From positions 1-37,944 of IMG/VR virus record IMGVR_UViG_3300036944_000491: a DNA stretch of 37,944 nucleotides, one strand, 5' to 3'. Shown in pieces: positions 11,292 through 16,459 of this stretch. Under the pieces are notes generated by a model that did no database searches, was not told the DNA's origin, and worked only from the letters and a program-made list of their open reading frames with translations. Origin of the DNA: a virus. Each line of letters begins with the position of its first letter. Within the stretch, counting starts at the first letter, position 1. The translations under genes and the position numbers were made by a program.

Positions 11292-11593
11292 CGGCGGTTA
11301 CAAGCATCTCAGCCATGAAGGGCAAAAAGCAGGGCGCGGCCTCTCGAAACAGCGACGGCAAGCCCAAGCCTGGAACGTTGCTTCGCCAGAAATACGATGA
11401 GCTTCGTGCTGGAGGTGTCGTGGCGCTCGGTAACGCAGGATACAAGAACCAGCTCAGTGATTTTTACGGAATGGAACTCGCCGTAGTGACTGAGGGCCGA
11501 AAGAAGATCGGTTGCCGCCTCCTCGGAGAATGGGAAGGCCCCTACTACGTGCCTATTGAACGGATTGTTGCAGGAATGGCGGGTGAGGCGTGA
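11288..11593 (+). CDS. Hypothetical basic protein upstream of small terminase (101 aa)
   Basis: ATG 11288 overlaps the previous stop (ATGA). The N-terminus is Lys/Gly-rich (MKGKKQGAASRNSDGKPKPG) and looks disordered and nucleic-acid-binding. The C-terminal half (GRKKIGCRLLGEWEGPYYVP) may form a small beta fold. It overlaps the small terminase start and could be part of the packaging module. No family recognised. Confidence 0.6.
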   Translation: MTAVTSISAMKGKKQGAASRNSDGKPKPGTLLRQKYDELRAGGVVALGNAGYKNQLSDFYGMELAVVTEGRKKIGCRLLGEWEGPYYVPIERIVAGMAGEA

Positions 11594-12036
11594 GCGACCC
11601 TCAAGACGTTCCAGAAGCCGATAAGGTCATGGCTATTCTGGCTATGATCGAGTCAGGCGAGAGCGAACGTGCTTCGTGCATGGCGCACGGTATGAACCGC
11701 ATGACGTTCCGGTCCCGTGCGCTTAAGCTTGGCGCTGCTAGCCAATACGCGGAGGCTACTAGCGCGTTGGCCCGGTTCCAGGTCGAGCAGCTTGAGGCGG
11801 TCATTGAGAAGGCTGAGCGAGGAGAGATCGACCACCAGACCGCTCGCCTTGTCATGGATGCAAGGAAGTGGATGGCGTCCAAGCTGTTTCCGAAGCAATG
11901 GGGCGACAAGATCGCCCACGTCGGCGGCGACCCTGCTACGGACAGCCCCATCCAGTCGCAAGGCACGATCAAGGTGGAGGGGCTGAGCGAATCGGCGCTG
12001 CGGGAGATTGCGGCGTTGAGGGTGGACGAAAAATAA
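11590..12036 (+). CDS. terS: Terminase small subunit-like protein
   Basis: GTG 11590 overlaps the upstream stop. The 148-aa product has an N-terminal HTH-like region (VMAILAMIESGESERASCMA through MTFRSRALKLGAA). A helical core (LEAVIEKAERGEIDHQTARL) leads to the recurring small-terminase motif DARKWMASKLFPKQWGDKI at about 95-113. The Ser/Glu-rich tail is typical. Small terminases recognise the packaging site and feed DNA to the large subunit. It is separated from the large subunit by about 2.8 kb holding the methyltransferase and small genes, which is unusual. Confidence 0.8.
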   Translation: MSDPQDVPEADKVMAILAMIESGESERASCMAHGMNRMTFRSRALKLGAASQYAEATSALARFQVEQLEAVIEKAERGEIDHQTARLVMDARKWMASKLFPKQWGDKIAHVGGDPATDSPIQSQGTIKVEGLSESALREIAALRVDEK

Positions 12037-12056
12037 GCGCACGGTGCATTTAGTGC

Positions 12057-12084
12057 TTGCGTAATATCTGCCGTGCGGTATGTT
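12057..12084 (+). promoter_or_regulatory. Promoter-like site TTGCGT-N16-TATGTT
   Basis: TTGCGT (12057-12062), exactly 16 bp, then TATGTT (12079-12084). The spacing equals that of the repeated TTGACC/TATGGT promoters, with changes in both boxes. It lies 50 bp before the gene at 12134 and just after the small terminase, where a new transcript is plausible. Confidence 0.5.
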
Positions 12085-12133
12085 CAGTCATCGGCGCAGG
12101 GCAATCACGCACTAGCCGGGAGGAACGAAGCAG

Positions 12134-12295
12134 ATGCAAAACCAAATCGTCAGCCACTACGAAGTCACGAACACACGGACTGGTGCCGTTAAGTCCTACG
12201 CAACGAGCGCTGCGGCCATTCGCGCCATGGACTCCATGAATCGCGCTCACGGTTCGTCTATTGCGGCGCGCAGGGCAATCTGGGCGGCTTCGTGA
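12134..12295 (+). CDS. Hypothetical protein (53 aa)
   Basis: ATG 12134 follows GGGAGGAACGAAGCAG. The sequence (MQNQIVSHYEVTNTRTGAVK...) has a short beta-like N-terminus and an Ala/Arg-rich helical tail (MDSMNRAHGSSIAARRAI). No domain recognised. Its TGA overlaps the ATG of the next gene. Confidence 0.6.
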   Translation: MQNQIVSHYEVTNTRTGAVKSYATSAAAIRAMDSMNRAHGSSIAARRAIWAAS

Positions 12296-12561
12296 TGCCG
12301 CGAGGTAAAGTGATTGAGGCTGTGCGGAACTTCATTCGTTGGGCCGAGAACCCTGCGGACGACGCTTGCGGCATGGCTCGCGAACAGGAGTGGCTTCAGC
12401 AGGCGCGAGACGTGCTGAGGCGGGAAGAAGTGCGCGAGGCCGAGAAGGTTCGCGCACTGGATGGCCTGTCTCATGCGCTCAATATCGCTGAGCAATCCGA
12501 CAACACGGTCAGCGCTCACTTCATTAAGAACGCCATGGCGTTTATTGAGGGTGAAGCATGA
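12295..12561 (+). CDS. Hypothetical alpha-helical protein (88 aa)
   Basis: ATG 12295 overlaps the preceding stop; a GTG one codon earlier is also usable. The product (MPRGKVIEAVRNFIRWAENP...) is helical, with repeated Arg/Glu/Ala (QARDVLRREEVREAEKVRAL), so it may form a coiled coil. No family recognised. The stop overlaps the next gene. Confidence 0.6.
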   Translation: MPRGKVIEAVRNFIRWAENPADDACGMAREQEWLQQARDVLRREEVREAEKVRALDGLSHALNIAEQSDNTVSAHFIKNAMAFIEGEA

Positions 12562-12878
12562 CCCCCTCCGAATACCGTACCGCCCTATCCACCCTAGGCC
12601 TGTCGCAGCTCGCTGCCGGTCGATGGCTAAACGTATCCCCCAAGACCGCGCAGAACTACGCCAGCAAGGGGCCTAGCGGTCCTGCTGCTGTGGCGATTAG
12701 GATGGCGCTGACGATCAAGGCTAAGGCAGAGATGTACGAGGCAAAGCGCGACGACGCTGATCCATTCGGCCCTGAAAGCAGCACCCTTTGGGATGAGCGC
12801 AATCACTCGTTTGAGGCAATGTCCGCGTTGATGGCTGACGTTGGGCTTGCAGATGCGTTGAGGGTGGAGGAGGGGTGA
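12558..12878 (+). CDS. HTH DNA-binding protein (106 aa)
   Basis: ATG 12558 overlaps the upstream stop. Residues about 12-45 (LGLSQLAAGRWLNVSPKTAQ NYASKGPSG) match a helix-turn-helix of the XRE/Cro type, with a turn before the recognition helix SPKTAQNYASKG. The remainder is helical and acidic. It may control the neighbouring ncRNA and methyltransferase promoters (12920, 13192), but this is inferred from position only. Confidence 0.65.
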   Translation: MTPSEYRTALSTLGLSQLAAGRWLNVSPKTAQNYASKGPSGPAAVAIRMALTIKAKAEMYEAKRDDADPFGPESSTLWDERNHSFEAMSALMADVGLADALRVEEG

Positions 12879-12919
12879 TGGAGTCTCCAGTCAAGGACGA
12901 CTGAAGCAAGACCGTGCGC

Positions 12920-12947
12920 TTGACCCGCCAGCCTGATCGCGTATGGT
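12920..12947 (+). promoter_or_regulatory. Phage promoter TTGACC-N16-TATGGT for the putative ncRNA
   Basis: TTGACC (12920-12925), 16 bp, TATGGT (12942-12947), with the extended start GCGCTTGACC shared with 13192. It lies 42 bp after the end of the HTH gene. A terminator follows about 190 bp downstream with no good coding frame between. Confidence 0.75.
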
Positions 12948-12953
12948 GGTGGT

Positions 12954-13170
12954 GTGAACTAAACGACGACCCCGACCGCTGTTTCCGACAGCGGCCCGGA
13001 GTTAGTAAGCGTAACGAGAATGCGAGCAGCACGGAATGGACGCGCTACCGTGAACGCCTAGCGAGCGAGACGGTCAAATCTGAGCCAAGCGGCAATACGA
13101 TGTCAGCCAGTATCAATCCTGGCCTCGCATAGCCCCGGTGTCCGTTAGTTCGGGTGCCGGGGTTTTTCTT
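12954..13170 (+). ncRNA. Candidate phage small noncoding RNA (about 215 nt)
   Basis: A consensus phage promoter ends at 12947 and a strong terminator closes at 13170; the start near 12954 is estimated. The frames between contain no sensible start after the promoter. One frame is open to 13132, but its only start (GTG 12914) lies upstream of the -35 box. The transcript holds a 7-bp perfect hairpin, CCGCTGT-ttccg-ACAGCGG (12976-12994), a smaller one, CGCTA/TAGCG near 13040-13063, and the terminator stem. It is immediately followed by the promoter of the methyltransferase. An RNA regulator is the best explanation, but expression is unproven. Confidence 0.5.
13133..13170 (+). terminator. Strong rho-independent terminator
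   Basis: CCCCGGTGTCC (13133-13143) pairs with GGGTGCCGGGG (13152-13162) over 11 bp, three of them G-T, with an 8-nt loop and a following TTTTTCTT. It closes the candidate ncRNA just before the methyltransferase promoter. Confidence 0.85.
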
Positions 13171-13191
13171 TGGCTGGTGTGCGATTGGCGC

Positions 13192-13219
13192 TTGACCATT
13201 GGGGCGGGTGGGGTATGGT
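13192..13219 (+). promoter_or_regulatory. Phage promoter TTGACC-N16-TATGGT for the methyltransferase
   Basis: TTGACC (13192-13197), 16 bp, TATGGT (13214-13219). The first three bases of the spacer continue the -35 as TTGACCATT, and the -10 is followed by C, giving a near-inverted repeat (GACCAT...TATGGTC). It is followed by GAGGAG and the ATG of the methyltransferase at 13239. Confidence 0.75.
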
Positions 13220-13238
13220 CTGCGCCAGAGGAGAAACC

Positions 13239-13994
13239 ATGCGCGTATTAGATTTGTTCAGCGGAATAGGCGGCTTCTCGCTCGGATTGGAGCGCGCCGG
13301 CATGGAGACCGTAGCGTTCTGCGAGATTGATCCACACGCTCGCGCCGTCCTAAACAAGCACTGGCCAAGGGTTAGAACCTATGACGACGTATGCAAACTC
13401 ACAGCAGACAGACTGGCTTCCGATGGAATCGGACCAATCGACGTCATCACGGGAGGATTCCCATGCCAGGATGTTTCTGTTGCGGGAAAGCAAGCAGGGA
13501 TCGAAGACGGCACTCGATCCGGACTTTGGTCTGAAATCGCTCGACTCGTTGGCGAGCTACGACCCAGGTTCGTCATTGTGGAAAACGTCTCAAACCTGCT
13601 TGCTGGCCCAAGCGAGCGGCCTGGGAGGTGGTTTGGCAGAGTTCTCGGAGACCTGGCCGCGCTCGGGTATGATGCGGAATGGCACTGCATACCAGCTTCC
13701 TACCTTGGGGCCTGGCATCAACGGGACAGAGTATGGCTGGTTGCCTACTCCCACGAAGTCCAGCGCGAAAGCGGCTTGCAAGTCCCGATACTTCGGCAGT
13801 CCCACCTATCGGACAAACTTTCACGAGGCTTTGAGGACTGGCCCGGAAGACGGAACCTACCCCGATCCGTACTTCACAGAAAGTGTAATGGGGTTCCCCG
13901 ACTCATGGACCGAATTGAGCGACTCGGAAACTCCGTCGTCCCGCAAATACCGGAAATGATCGGACGCGCGATCATGGCGACACAAACCGCTTGA
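13239..13994 (+). CDS. DNA (cytosine-5) methyltransferase, Dcm-like
   Basis: ATG 13239 follows GAGGAG. The 251-aa product has the C5-methyltransferase motifs: LFSGIGGFSLGLERAG (I, residues 6-21), the catalytic GGFPCQDVS (IV, C76), VIVENVSNL (VI, 112-120), QRDRVWLVAY (VIII, 161-170) and RLGNSVVPQIPEMIGRAI (IX/X, 228-245). It transfers a methyl group from SAM to cytosine C5. It is short: the target-recognition region between VIII and IX is only about 55 residues, so specificity cannot be read. Possible roles are protection of phage DNA from host restriction or gene regulation. A second long frame, unrelated in phase, lies inside it (13381-13959). Confidence 0.9.
   Translation: MRVLDLFSGIGGFSLGLERAGMETVAFCEIDPHARAVLNKHWPRVRTYDDVCKLTADRLASDGIGPIDVITGGFPCQDVSVAGKQAGIEDGTRSGLWSEIARLVGELRPRFVIVENVSNLLAGPSERPGRWFGRVLGDLAALGYDAEWHCIPASYLGAWHQRDRVWLVAYSHEVQRESGLQVPILRQSHLSDKLSRGFEDWPGRRNLPRSVLHRKCNGVPRLMDRIERLGNSVVPQIPEMIGRAIMATQTA
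13381..13959 (+). CDS. Overlapping second-frame protein inside the methyltransferase gene (192 aa)
   Basis: In a different phase from the methyltransferase, an ATG opens a 193-codon frame wholly inside it. The protein has ordinary composition and ends with motifs I recall from independent phage proteins linked to C5 methyltransferases: LASYDPGSSLWKTSQTC (57-73), FSETWPRSGMMRNGTAYQLP (88-107), WLPTPTKSS (120-128) and YFTESVMGFPDSWTELSDSE (164-183). Both frames therefore look selected. No ribosome-binding site is obvious, so expression could need internal initiation or coupling. The family memory is moderate and no search was run. Confidence 0.55.
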   Translation: MTTYANSQQTDWLPMESDQSTSSREDSHARMFLLRESKQGSKTALDPDFGLKSLDSLASYDPGSSLWKTSQTCLLAQASGLGGGLAEFSETWPRSGMMRNGTAYQLPTLGPGINGTEYGWLPTPTKSSAKAACKSRYFGSPTYRTNFHEALRTGPEDGTYPDPYFTESVMGFPDSWTELSDSETPSSRKYRK

Positions 13995-14018
13995 CCATTC
14001 CCCATCCTGTCGTATGGT
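13991..14018 (+). promoter_or_regulatory. Phage promoter TTGACC-N16-TATGGT
   Basis: TTGACC (13991-13996), 16 bp, TATGGT (14013-14018), overlapping the stop codon of the methyltransferase. It is followed by AAGAGGAGAG and the small gene at 14041, so it drives the five small genes before the terminator at 14817-14849. Confidence 0.75.
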
Positions 14019-14040
14019 GGTGCGAGAAAGAGGAGAGATG

Positions 14041-14196
14041 ATGATGTTGGGCGTGAATTGGGTTAAATTCCACTGGTCGCGACATTGGGTAACGCCAATG
14101 TGGATGAGCACTTGGTACGGTCCCCAAATCCAGTTGGGGTGGCTGGTGATAGCCGTAAACACAGAGCGTAAAAACGCAGCCCGAGGGGGTAAGTGA
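14041..14196 (+). CDS. Tryptophan-rich small protein (51 aa)
   Basis: Three ATGs follow AGGAG (14038, 14041, 14044); 14041 gives about 5-nt spacing. The protein is unusually rich in Trp (MMLGVNWVKFHWSRHWVTPM..., then WMSTWYGPQIQLGWLVIAV), with 7 Trp in 51 residues and a hydrophobic centre. It could be membrane-associated or bind flat ligands. No family recognised. The stop overlaps the next gene. Confidence 0.5.
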   Translation: MMLGVNWVKFHWSRHWVTPMWMSTWYGPQIQLGWLVIAVNTERKNAARGGK

Positions 14197-14477
14197 TGGC
14201 TTCGGCGCTTGAGCGAGCTGAGCTGGCTCTTCGCGTAGAGGTGGAGCGCCAAGTTCAGGCCAATGGATCATACAGTGGCCCGGCCAACGGAAGCCCAAAC
14301 TACGTTGATACAGAGATTGATTACGGGCTGCTGACCCGCGCTGTCCTGATGGCTGTGCGTGACATCAGGCAGGAGGATCAGATGGGCGCATTCGACGCGT
14401 TTTCGTATGATGATGAGCGGACCTTCACCGACATGATAGACGCCATCCTCAACGAAAAGGACACGACCAATGACTGA
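14196..14477 (+). CDS. Hypothetical protein (93 aa)
   Basis: ATG 14196 overlaps the upstream stop and follows CGAGGGGGTAAG. The product is helical and acidic (MASALERAELALRVEVERQV..., tail DMIDAILNEKDTTND). No domain recognised. It overlaps the next gene's start by 8 bp. Confidence 0.6.
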   Translation: MASALERAELALRVEVERQVQANGSYSGPANGSPNYVDTEIDYGLLTRAVLMAVRDIRQEDQMGAFDAFSYDDERTFTDMIDAILNEKDTTND

Positions 14478-14649
14478 CGAACTGACGCTGCGGGAGAAGG
14501 TGTGGTGGGTGGCGTATCGCTTAGCCTCAATTGATCCGGGAAGTTGTGGAGATGACGCTGACGCTGCCCTTCTCGAAATCGCCGCCATCCTAGAAGACAC
14601 CGGCTCTCCCGCTCATATGCGGGTGGCGGCTGAGTTTAGGGGGGAGTGA
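14470..14649 (+). CDS. Hypothetical protein (59 aa)
   Basis: ATG 14470 lies within the end of the upstream gene. The protein (MTDELTLREKVWWVAYRLAS...) is helical and acidic, with DDADAALLEIAAILED in the middle. No family recognised. Its TGA overlaps the ATG of the next gene. Confidence 0.6.
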   Translation: MTDELTLREKVWWVAYRLASIDPGSCGDDADAALLEIAAILEDTGSPAHMRVAAEFRGE

Positions 14650-14810
14650 TGGGCGACGACGGCGCGATTATCTACGTTTGCCAAGGGCCTCCCGCCTGTG
14701 ACTTTGACGGGGAAGAGCCATGGAAGGTTCAGCCATCCTGTCATTTCTGCCAAAAGATTTACATGAACGACGACGGCTCTGAGGAAGTTGTGGAGCCGTC
14801 CCGTCAATAA
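14649..14810 (+). CDS. Small putative zinc-binding protein (53 aa)
   Basis: ATG 14649 follows GGGGGGAGTG. Two cysteine pairs, VCQGPPAC and SCHFCQK, give C-x5-C and C-x2-C knuckles about 20 residues apart, which would suit a zinc ribbon. The tail is acidic. It sits just upstream of the terminator and the large terminase. Function unknown. Confidence 0.6.
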   Translation: MGDDGAIIYVCQGPPACDFDGEEPWKVQPSCHFCQKIYMNDDGSEEVVEPSRQ

Positions 14811-14816
14811 CACCCC

Positions 14817-14849
14817 ACCCCCGCTCCATTGCCCCGGAGTGGGGGTTTC
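14817..14849 (+). terminator. Terminator-like hairpin before the late genes
   Basis: ACCCCCGCTCC (14817-14827) pairs with GGAGTGGGGGT (14836-14846) over 11 bp with one G-T, loop ATTGCCCC, then a short TTT. The T-run is weak, so read-through into the terminase gene, which starts 15 bp later, is likely. Confidence 0.6.
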
Positions 14850-14863
14850 GCTATGTGTGAGGG

Positions 14864-16459
14864 ATGGAGATAACAACGGCCCACGTCATGCGAGCGCGTC
14901 AGTTGCTCGCTCAGCGCAACGTGTGTGATTTCGCCTGTCTCGTGGACATCCCAACCGTCCCGCTATCCGACGAAAGCGACGAAGACGGCTTCAGCGTCAT
15001 GAAGCTCGGCAAGTTGGTCGCGCACCATGAGCTGGTGCTGCGCAAGCTACAGGGCGTTGAGGACGGCAGCGTTCCGAACCTGATGCTGTTGCTTCCACCA
15101 GGGTCCGCCAAGTCCACATATGCCGACGTTGTGTTCGTGCCGTGGTATATGGCCCGCAAGCCGCGTCGCAACGTCATCCTTGCATCCTACGCCTCGGACA
15201 TTGCCGCCAAGCAGGGGAGGCGCGCTAGAACGCTGGTCAAGTCGCGGGGCTTTGAGCGGCTGATGGACGTGACGCTCAGCAACACGACAAGCGCCGTCGA
15301 TCAGTGGGCCATGAGCAACGGGTCAGAGTTCATGGCGGGCGGCATACTGTCGGGCCTGACGGGCAACCGTGCGGCGCTTGGCATTCTTGACGACCCGATC
15401 CGAGGACGCGAGGCCGCAGAGTCCCAGACGATCCGCGATAAGACGTGGGATGCGTATGTTGATGACTTTTGCTCGCGTCTGATTCCAGGCGCTCCCCAAG
15501 TGATGATCCTTACGCGCTGGCACGCCGATGACCCTGCTGGCAGAATCCTGCCGGAAGATTGGTCGGGTGAGTCTGGCGTGTTTCAGGGGCAAGATGGTCG
15601 CGTTTGGCACGTCGTGTGCTTGCCTGCCATTGCAGATCGTCACGATGATCCGTTAGGCCGAGAGATCGGAGAAACCCTGTGGCCCGAGTGGTTCACGCTG
15701 GATCACTGGAAGCCGTTCCAGAAGAACAACCGAACCTGGACAAGCCTCTATCAACAGAAACCCTCAGCGCCAGAGGGTACGTTCTTTAAGCGAGAATGGT
15801 TTAAGCGGTATCGTGTGTCCGAGCGCCCTGCCCGCCTAAACTACTACATGACGAGCGACCATGCTCCGGGCGGCACGCAAGACAGCGACTGGAACGTGTT
15901 TCGGGTATGGGGCGTCGATAAAGATCAGAACCTGTGGGAAGTGGATGGCTACCGAGTTCAGGGGACCATCGACAAGGCGATGGGCGTCAAGCTTGACGAG
16001 CGAACCGGAGAGCAAACAGTAGCGGATCAGGGTGCGTTGCCGCTGATCAAGAAATGGAAACCTCTTTGCTGGTTCCCTGAGAACGACAATAACTGGAAGT
16101 CAGCAGCTCCGTTTGTTCGCGCCGCTATGCGCAAGCACAAAATCAGGTGCAGGATCGAAGAGATCAGCACGCAAGGCGGCGATAAGGCGAACAAAGCTCA
16201 GCCGTTCCAGGCCAAGGCGACTATGGGCGAGGTTTATATCCGAGCTGGAATGGAGGGTGACGAAATCATTAACGAATACGTGGCGTTCCCCGGTGGGAAG
16301 CATGATGACGAGGTTGACGCCGCGTCCAACATGGGTCGCGCTTTGGACATGGCGCATCCGGCCATTGTTCCGGTGAGCGAAATCGTAGATACTAACAAAC
16401 CAAGCGACCGCTACAGCAGGGGCCGCGATGAGCATGACGATGGAGGTTTTTATGGGTGA
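14864..16459 (+). CDS. terL: Terminase large subunit
   Basis: The 531-aa product has an ATPase domain with a Walker A-like loop LLPPGSAKST (76-85), Walker B LGILDDP (172-178) and coupling motif TRWH (217-220). The nuclease domain has DHAPGGTQDSDW near 333, FPENDNNW near 405 and the terminal GKHDDEVDAASNM (478-490), whose acidic residues bind metal. The protein threads concatemeric DNA into the prohead and cuts it. ATG 14864 follows TGTGAGGG; a later in-frame ATG (MRARQLL) is possible. Length and layout are typical of headful-packaging podoviruses. Confidence 0.95.
   Translation: MEITTAHVMRARQLLAQRNVCDFACLVDIPTVPLSDESDEDGFSVMKLGKLVAHHELVLRKLQGVEDGSVPNLMLLLPPGSAKSTYADVVFVPWYMARKPRRNVILASYASDIAAKQGRRARTLVKSRGFERLMDVTLSNTTSAVDQWAMSNGSEFMAGGILSGLTGNRAALGILDDPIRGREAAESQTIRDKTWDAYVDDFCSRLIPGAPQVMILTRWHADDPAGRILPEDWSGESGVFQGQDGRVWHVVCLPAIADRHDDPLGREIGETLWPEWFTLDHWKPFQKNNRTWTSLYQQKPSAPEGTFFKREWFKRYRVSERPARLNYYMTSDHAPGGTQDSDWNVFRVWGVDKDQNLWEVDGYRVQGTIDKAMGVKLDERTGEQTVADQGALPLIKKWKPLCWFPENDNNWKSAAPFVRAAMRKHKIRCRIEEISTQGGDKANKAQPFQAKATMGEVYIRAGMEGDEIINEYVAFPGGKHDDEVDAASNMGRALDMAHPAIVPVSEIVDTNKPSDRYSRGRDEHDDGGFYG

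Follow-up and report, generated by a model that had tools for sequence, protein, structure and literature searches.

Does the 192-codon reading frame nested inside a phage cytosine methyltransferase gene encode a protein of its own and, if so, what does that protein do? The question is raised by the window, i.e. the whole stretch of 37,944 nucleotides analyzed here, where an earlier note had described a second frame lying wholly within the methyltransferase frame. The frame is present exactly at positions 13381-13959 of the + strand, as are all the elements of the two genes given below at their own positions, and starts with ATG; in the ORF list of the window it is entirely contained within the methyltransferase ORF, in the +1 phase. 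The outer frame, M (13239-13994, 251 aa), is read as the catalytic chain of a C5-cytosine DNA methyltransferase and holds motifs I-VIII plus X; the nested frame, S (192 aa), is a putative target-recognition and motif IX subunit. Outside small viral genomes, long stretches that code for two conserved proteins are, to our knowledge, rare. As judged from the sequence, the window very probably encodes a single cytosine-5 DNA methyltransferase made of two polypeptides in two frames, S being its recognition and motif IX part.

M matches PF00145 (E=9.8e-45, residues 1-177) and phrog_363 (E=6.6e-75), and carries the PF00145 hallmarks, i.e. motifs I, IV (PCQ), VI (ENV), VIII and X. They were read as VLDLFSGIGGF for motif I (13245-13277), GGFPCQDVS for motif IV (13452-13478), which includes the catalytic PCQ with C76 invariant in alignment A4, PRFVIVENV for motif VI (13563-13589), QRDRVWLVA for motif VIII (13719-13745) and RLGNSVVPQIPEMIGRAI for motif X (13920-13973), where the predicted structure has a C-terminal helix (residues 236-250). 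The start of M is likely ATG 13239, behind a Shine-Dalgarno-like site read at 13227-13233 (GAGGAG region, CCAGAGGAGAAACCATG), rather than TTG 13170. The AlphaFold model of M aligns with M.HhaI (327 aa) over 226 residues, with a Z of 23 and an rmsd of 3.0; its residues ~180-229 show a pLDDT of ~50 and no strands, and a folded small domain is absent. The earlier note had M keeping motifs I-X, which is correct for I-VIII and X; motif IX is located in the S frame. Neither motif IX nor the recognition region is found in the chain of M, and the best frame-0 motif IX score in nested genes is 0. M alone would be an incomplete single-chain enzyme, and M plus S a complete one.

The methylase locus lies between the small (11590-12036) and the large (14864-16459) terminase genes of a tailed phage. 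The interval between them (12037-14863) contains the methylase and several small ORFs, and has the look of a cargo site inside the packaging cluster. A small protein encoded upstream of the methylase (12558-12878, SQLAAGRWLNVSPKTAQNYASKG) reads like a helix-turn-helix regulator; it has no PHROG match.

An open second frame might be an untranslated echo of the conserved residues and codon usage of M. The comparison was therefore made on 76 non-identical methylases selected by M only, each against 50 synonymous shuffles of the same gene, preserving protein and codon usage. The +1 frame is open in all 76 (156-307 codons, mean 214), against means of 85 for the shuffles and 52 for the +2 frame. When scored with the S profile, the real +1 frame beats the best of its 50 shuffles in 76/76 genes, with a mean of 265 vs 133 bits and a mean of the shuffle maxima of 165. 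Part of the similarity is an echo of M, since shuffled M still reaches 133 bits, and this speaks for the echo explanation; against it stand the real genes, above all shuffles in every case, a codon constraint confined to the span of S, and a recognition region better conserved in S than in M, as detailed below. A simple echo was rejected on the shuffle test and on the restriction of synonymous constraint to S, and an untranslated S is regarded as extremely improbable. The conservation of S far exceeds what the conservation of M explains, and the long dual coding of two conserved proteins, proposed in the earlier note, is real.

Synonymous constraint, expressed as the same-codon probability over its null, was evaluated on 183 nonredundant nested genes, an analysis that the earlier note had suggested. 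The excess falls mainly inside the span of S: median z is 1.2 before S, 8.0, 18.5, 24.5 and 14.6 within it, and 0.5 after it, the constraint beginning at the S start and ending with S. The target region of M (columns 173-214) has a z of 0.6, which reflects how little M itself is conserved in that stretch. In the window, codon analysis and reading of the sequence place the strongest double constraint at 13642-13701, where FSETWPRSGMMRNGTAYQLP of S lies over VLGDLAALGYDAEWHCIPAS of M; further upstream, LASYDPGSSLWKTSQTCL of S (13549-13602) was read over motif VI of M. A free accumulation of stops in the S frame of relatives, which would have spoken against it, is not borne out: stops occur at 0.0046 per codon, against 0.0256 expected, in the 183 genes, and within the S recognition region in 2 of 179 genes. 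Among 80 relatives selected by S, two (L005 and L064) contain an S-frame stop inside the matched region, with M intact in both; decay, a later start or a sequencing error are the alternatives for these two.

The start of S is ATG in 103 of the 183 genes, and the M tyrosine overlapping it is biased towards TAT (116:32, vs 293:553 at other tyrosines, P=2e-23); other tyrosine columns of the overlap are biased in opposite ways (TAT 145:26; TAC 148:3), each as S needs. GGAGG, GGAG, GAGG or AGGAG precedes 70% of the 103 ATGs, vs about 10% of random places, mostly at a spacing of 9; M residues (WPEV) may contribute to this GGAGG-type motif. In the window, a Shine-Dalgarno-like AAGGG was read at 13367-13371, 9 nt before the ATG at 13381.

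To see which of the two frames selection follows, substitutions at each position of the M codons were counted in 35 independent pairs of relatives. Before S, the values for positions 1/2/3 are 0.085/0.050/0.327; the core of the overlap gives 0.068/0.025/0.095, the target-recognition region 0.274/0.133/0.161 and the part behind S 0.166/0.147/0.339. The M position that is fastest in the recognition region, the first, is position 3 of S, so the S frame is constrained there. In the same 35 pairs, amino-acid differences in this region amount to 0.32 for M vs 0.20 for S. Selection in the recognition region is therefore shown to follow S. If S alone mattered, M would be expected to be broken in 82% of the genes; it stays open. 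At the level of the sequence, these comparisons show both frames to be conserved protein-coding sequence.

On the DNA, the usual order of C5-methylase elements is kept across the two frames: I-VIII in M, the recognition region and motif IX in S (13738-13917), and X (counted here as 13920-13946) again in M. The recognition stretch in the S frame, assigned from the substitution pattern, begins with WLPTPT and covers 13738-13857 (the peptide WLPTPTKSS was read at 13738-13764), while M reads there as a weakly constrained spacer, with a pLDDT of ~50. Motif IX follows at 13858-13917 (YPDPYFTESVMGFPDSWTEL; the M frame reads ..NGVPRLMDRI). The C-terminal part of S, LNPxWVEWLMGFPxGWT in relatives, aligns by hhalign to single-chain actinobacterial methylases immediately before their motif X (E=3.9e-7, over 26 columns only). 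A segment directly before motif X is in the place of motif IX, and the C-terminal part of S is read as such on this ground; in the single-chain relatives motif IX is in the frame of M, and their alignment with M is limited to motifs I-VIII. Modelled alone by AlphaFold, S gave a pLDDT of 59, poor except for the motif IX helix, so that its domain is without structural confirmation and the model was too poor for a fold search; such low confidence might be expected for a chain that folds with a partner.

Among the PHROG families, S has a match to phrog_1008 (E=2e-19), which bears the label 'DNA methyltransferase'. S matched no Pfam family, and its profile gave only a chance match (E=1.5) among PDB sequences. 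S-frame proteins are matched by PHROGs 1008, 26627, 27243, 31772 and 16143, three of them labelled DNA methyltransferase and the rest unknown; all five are probably translations of the nested frame.

Alternatively, S could be an independent protein, such as a regulator or an anti-restriction protein, whose only link to M is the shared DNA. In favor of this, no known domain was matched in Pfam by its N-terminal half (WKTSQ, SETWPRSGMMRNG). Against it stand the recognition region and motif IX in the C-terminal part of S, and the result that no S was found without an overlapping methylase; we consider this explanation very unlikely. A search of viral_contigs with S as the query returned 109 confirmed relatives, of which 80 were kept; all 80 have S within M, always in the +1 phase. 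Stand-alone S genes were found neither among the S-selected loci of viral_contigs and genome_contigs nor in the phage records opened. The earlier note had taken peptides of S for motifs of separate phage proteins; each relative examined proved to be a nested +1 frame of a methylase, sometimes annotated instead of M. It had also counted the lack of homologues outside overlaps against S. None was found, yet S is not refuted, because codon constraint, the start site and selection in the recognition region show that it is coding. It is improbable that S is a protein unrelated to the methylase.

The nested frame is found in phages of several hosts, such as Mycobacterium phages Zerg and Rhynn, Microbacterium phage MoxS-R1, Lactobacillus phage Lc-Nu, Salmonella phage S9-5 and Paenibacillus phage Lily, and also in Stenotrophomonas, Vibrio and Bacteroides phages. 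In the isolated phages that were profiled, the S profile scores 114-197 bits in the +1 frame and nothing in +2. Database records are inconsistent: some report M only, some S only (as 'hypothetical protein' or 'DNA methyltransferase'), and few both. In the Paenibacillus larvae phages Lily (LILY_63) and Rani (gp51), the nested frame is annotated as 'internal gene'. The S frame is annotated and M omitted in Vibrio 1.291 (L091), SOVA965 (L089), Rctr197k (L090) and Mwe-JY08 (L086); it is called hypothetical protein in Vibrio 1.291 and Rctr197k, and DNA-cytosine methyltransferase in SOVA965. No earlier report of the phage M/S overlap was found in the papers searched.

In the proposed enzyme, M (frame 0) would act as the catalytic subunit, providing SAM binding, the PCQ nucleophile and motifs VI, VIII and X. 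S (frame +1) would be translated from its own ATG behind the Shine-Dalgarno site inside M, and would supply the target-recognition region and motif IX. The two chains, both presumably required, would assemble into an enzyme with a large and a small domain, which would methylate DNA at a site set by S and might protect the phage DNA. The canonical order of I-VIII, recognition region, IX and X over the two frames, together with the existence of single-chain relatives, could instead suggest programmed ribosomal frameshifting, by which a +1 slip after motif VIII and a return before motif X would yield one full-length chain. Two slips of opposite sense would be needed, both frames are open throughout, and the constraint on S reaches about 350 nt upstream of the point where such a slip would need it, as far as an ATG that is conserved and preceded by a Shine-Dalgarno site. 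Frameshifting is accordingly judged very unlikely, and translation of S as a separate subunit is preferred.

The location of motif IX was determined in 296 loci: it is in the +1 frame within M in 266, in the frame of M in 16, and in the +1 frame past the end of M in 3, being undecided or not found in 11. The 16 single-chain loci are nearly all from Actinomycetota. The 3 loci with motif IX past the end of M (out of 269 with a +1 motif IX) include Streptomyces phage RemusLoopin, where genes 34/35 (L084:2314-3367) form a split methylase, with relatives such as phiBT1 9.1 and L217. In L084 the +1 frame already overlaps gene 34 far ahead of where gene 35 is annotated to begin, and it contains the recognition region, IX and X; the start of gene 35 may lie further upstream than its annotation.

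A tree built on motifs I-VIII, whose root is not fixed, joins the single-chain and split forms (SH-aLRT 99), with the exception of one row on a long branch; four changes are needed to explain the three arrangement states. Single-chain rows were found through the S-frame pattern, and their sampling is thus biased. A single-chain ancestor with frameshifts flanking the recognition region is the simplest path, with the root of the tree not fixed. We lean, by a modest measure, towards the wider view that a very large family of phage and prophage methylases (phrog_363 with phrog_1008) has the nested recognition subunit as its usual layout, and that this layout originated once, when frameshifts flanking the recognition region arose in a single-chain ancestor, specificity evolving in one frame and catalysis being held in the other frame of the same DNA.

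The M/S dual coding is met repeatedly in phages and prophages from many hosts, and is open to laboratory tests. If S is required, a 'single-gene' phage methylase would lose its activity on codon optimisation, since S does not survive the recoding of M. M/S would be a natural case of recognition and catalysis evolving in different frames of one stretch of DNA.

Among the closest known systems is M.EcoHK31I (YGGCCR), a two-polypeptide C5-methyltransferase. Lee, Kam and Shaw reportedly described in 1995 a small EcoHK31I gene lying inside the large one in another frame, with both proteins needed in vitro; the S gene of the window is likewise nested in M in another frame. Of the two M.EcoHK31I polypeptides, the larger has motifs I-VIII and X and the smaller has IX alone (PMC3404938), and M and S share this layout as described. 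The predicted recognition domain of M.EcoHK31I is placed in the larger subunit (PMC3404938), whereas selection in the family of the window puts recognition on S; moreover, M.EcoHK31I belongs to a bacterial restriction-modification system and M/S is a phage gene. A plasmid search with the S-frame query from L177 found no enterobacterial restriction-modification locus. M.AquI (CYCGRG), also made of two polypeptides, is split into alpha and beta chains, the smaller one with the distal recognition region, IX and X (PMC3404938); the window resembles it in the recognition region and motif IX of the smaller chain but differs in motif X, which is in the frame of M. RemusLoopin genes 34/35, whose S frame includes motif X, resemble the M.AquI split, unlike the window. 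The methylase gene of phage ShiLan likewise hosts a protein in a different frame, an out-of-frame HNH endonuclease (PMC11855218); there the nuclease is carried by a mobile insert, whereas S is no insertion but part of the methylase. LILY_63 and Rani gp51 are the same nested frame as S, but their records give neither function nor generality. The nested arrangement, known from one laboratory enzyme, appears to be the rule in many phage methylases, where it has mostly gone unnoticed; new are the breadth of the nested form, the evidence for recognition in S, and the series of single-chain, split and nested forms.
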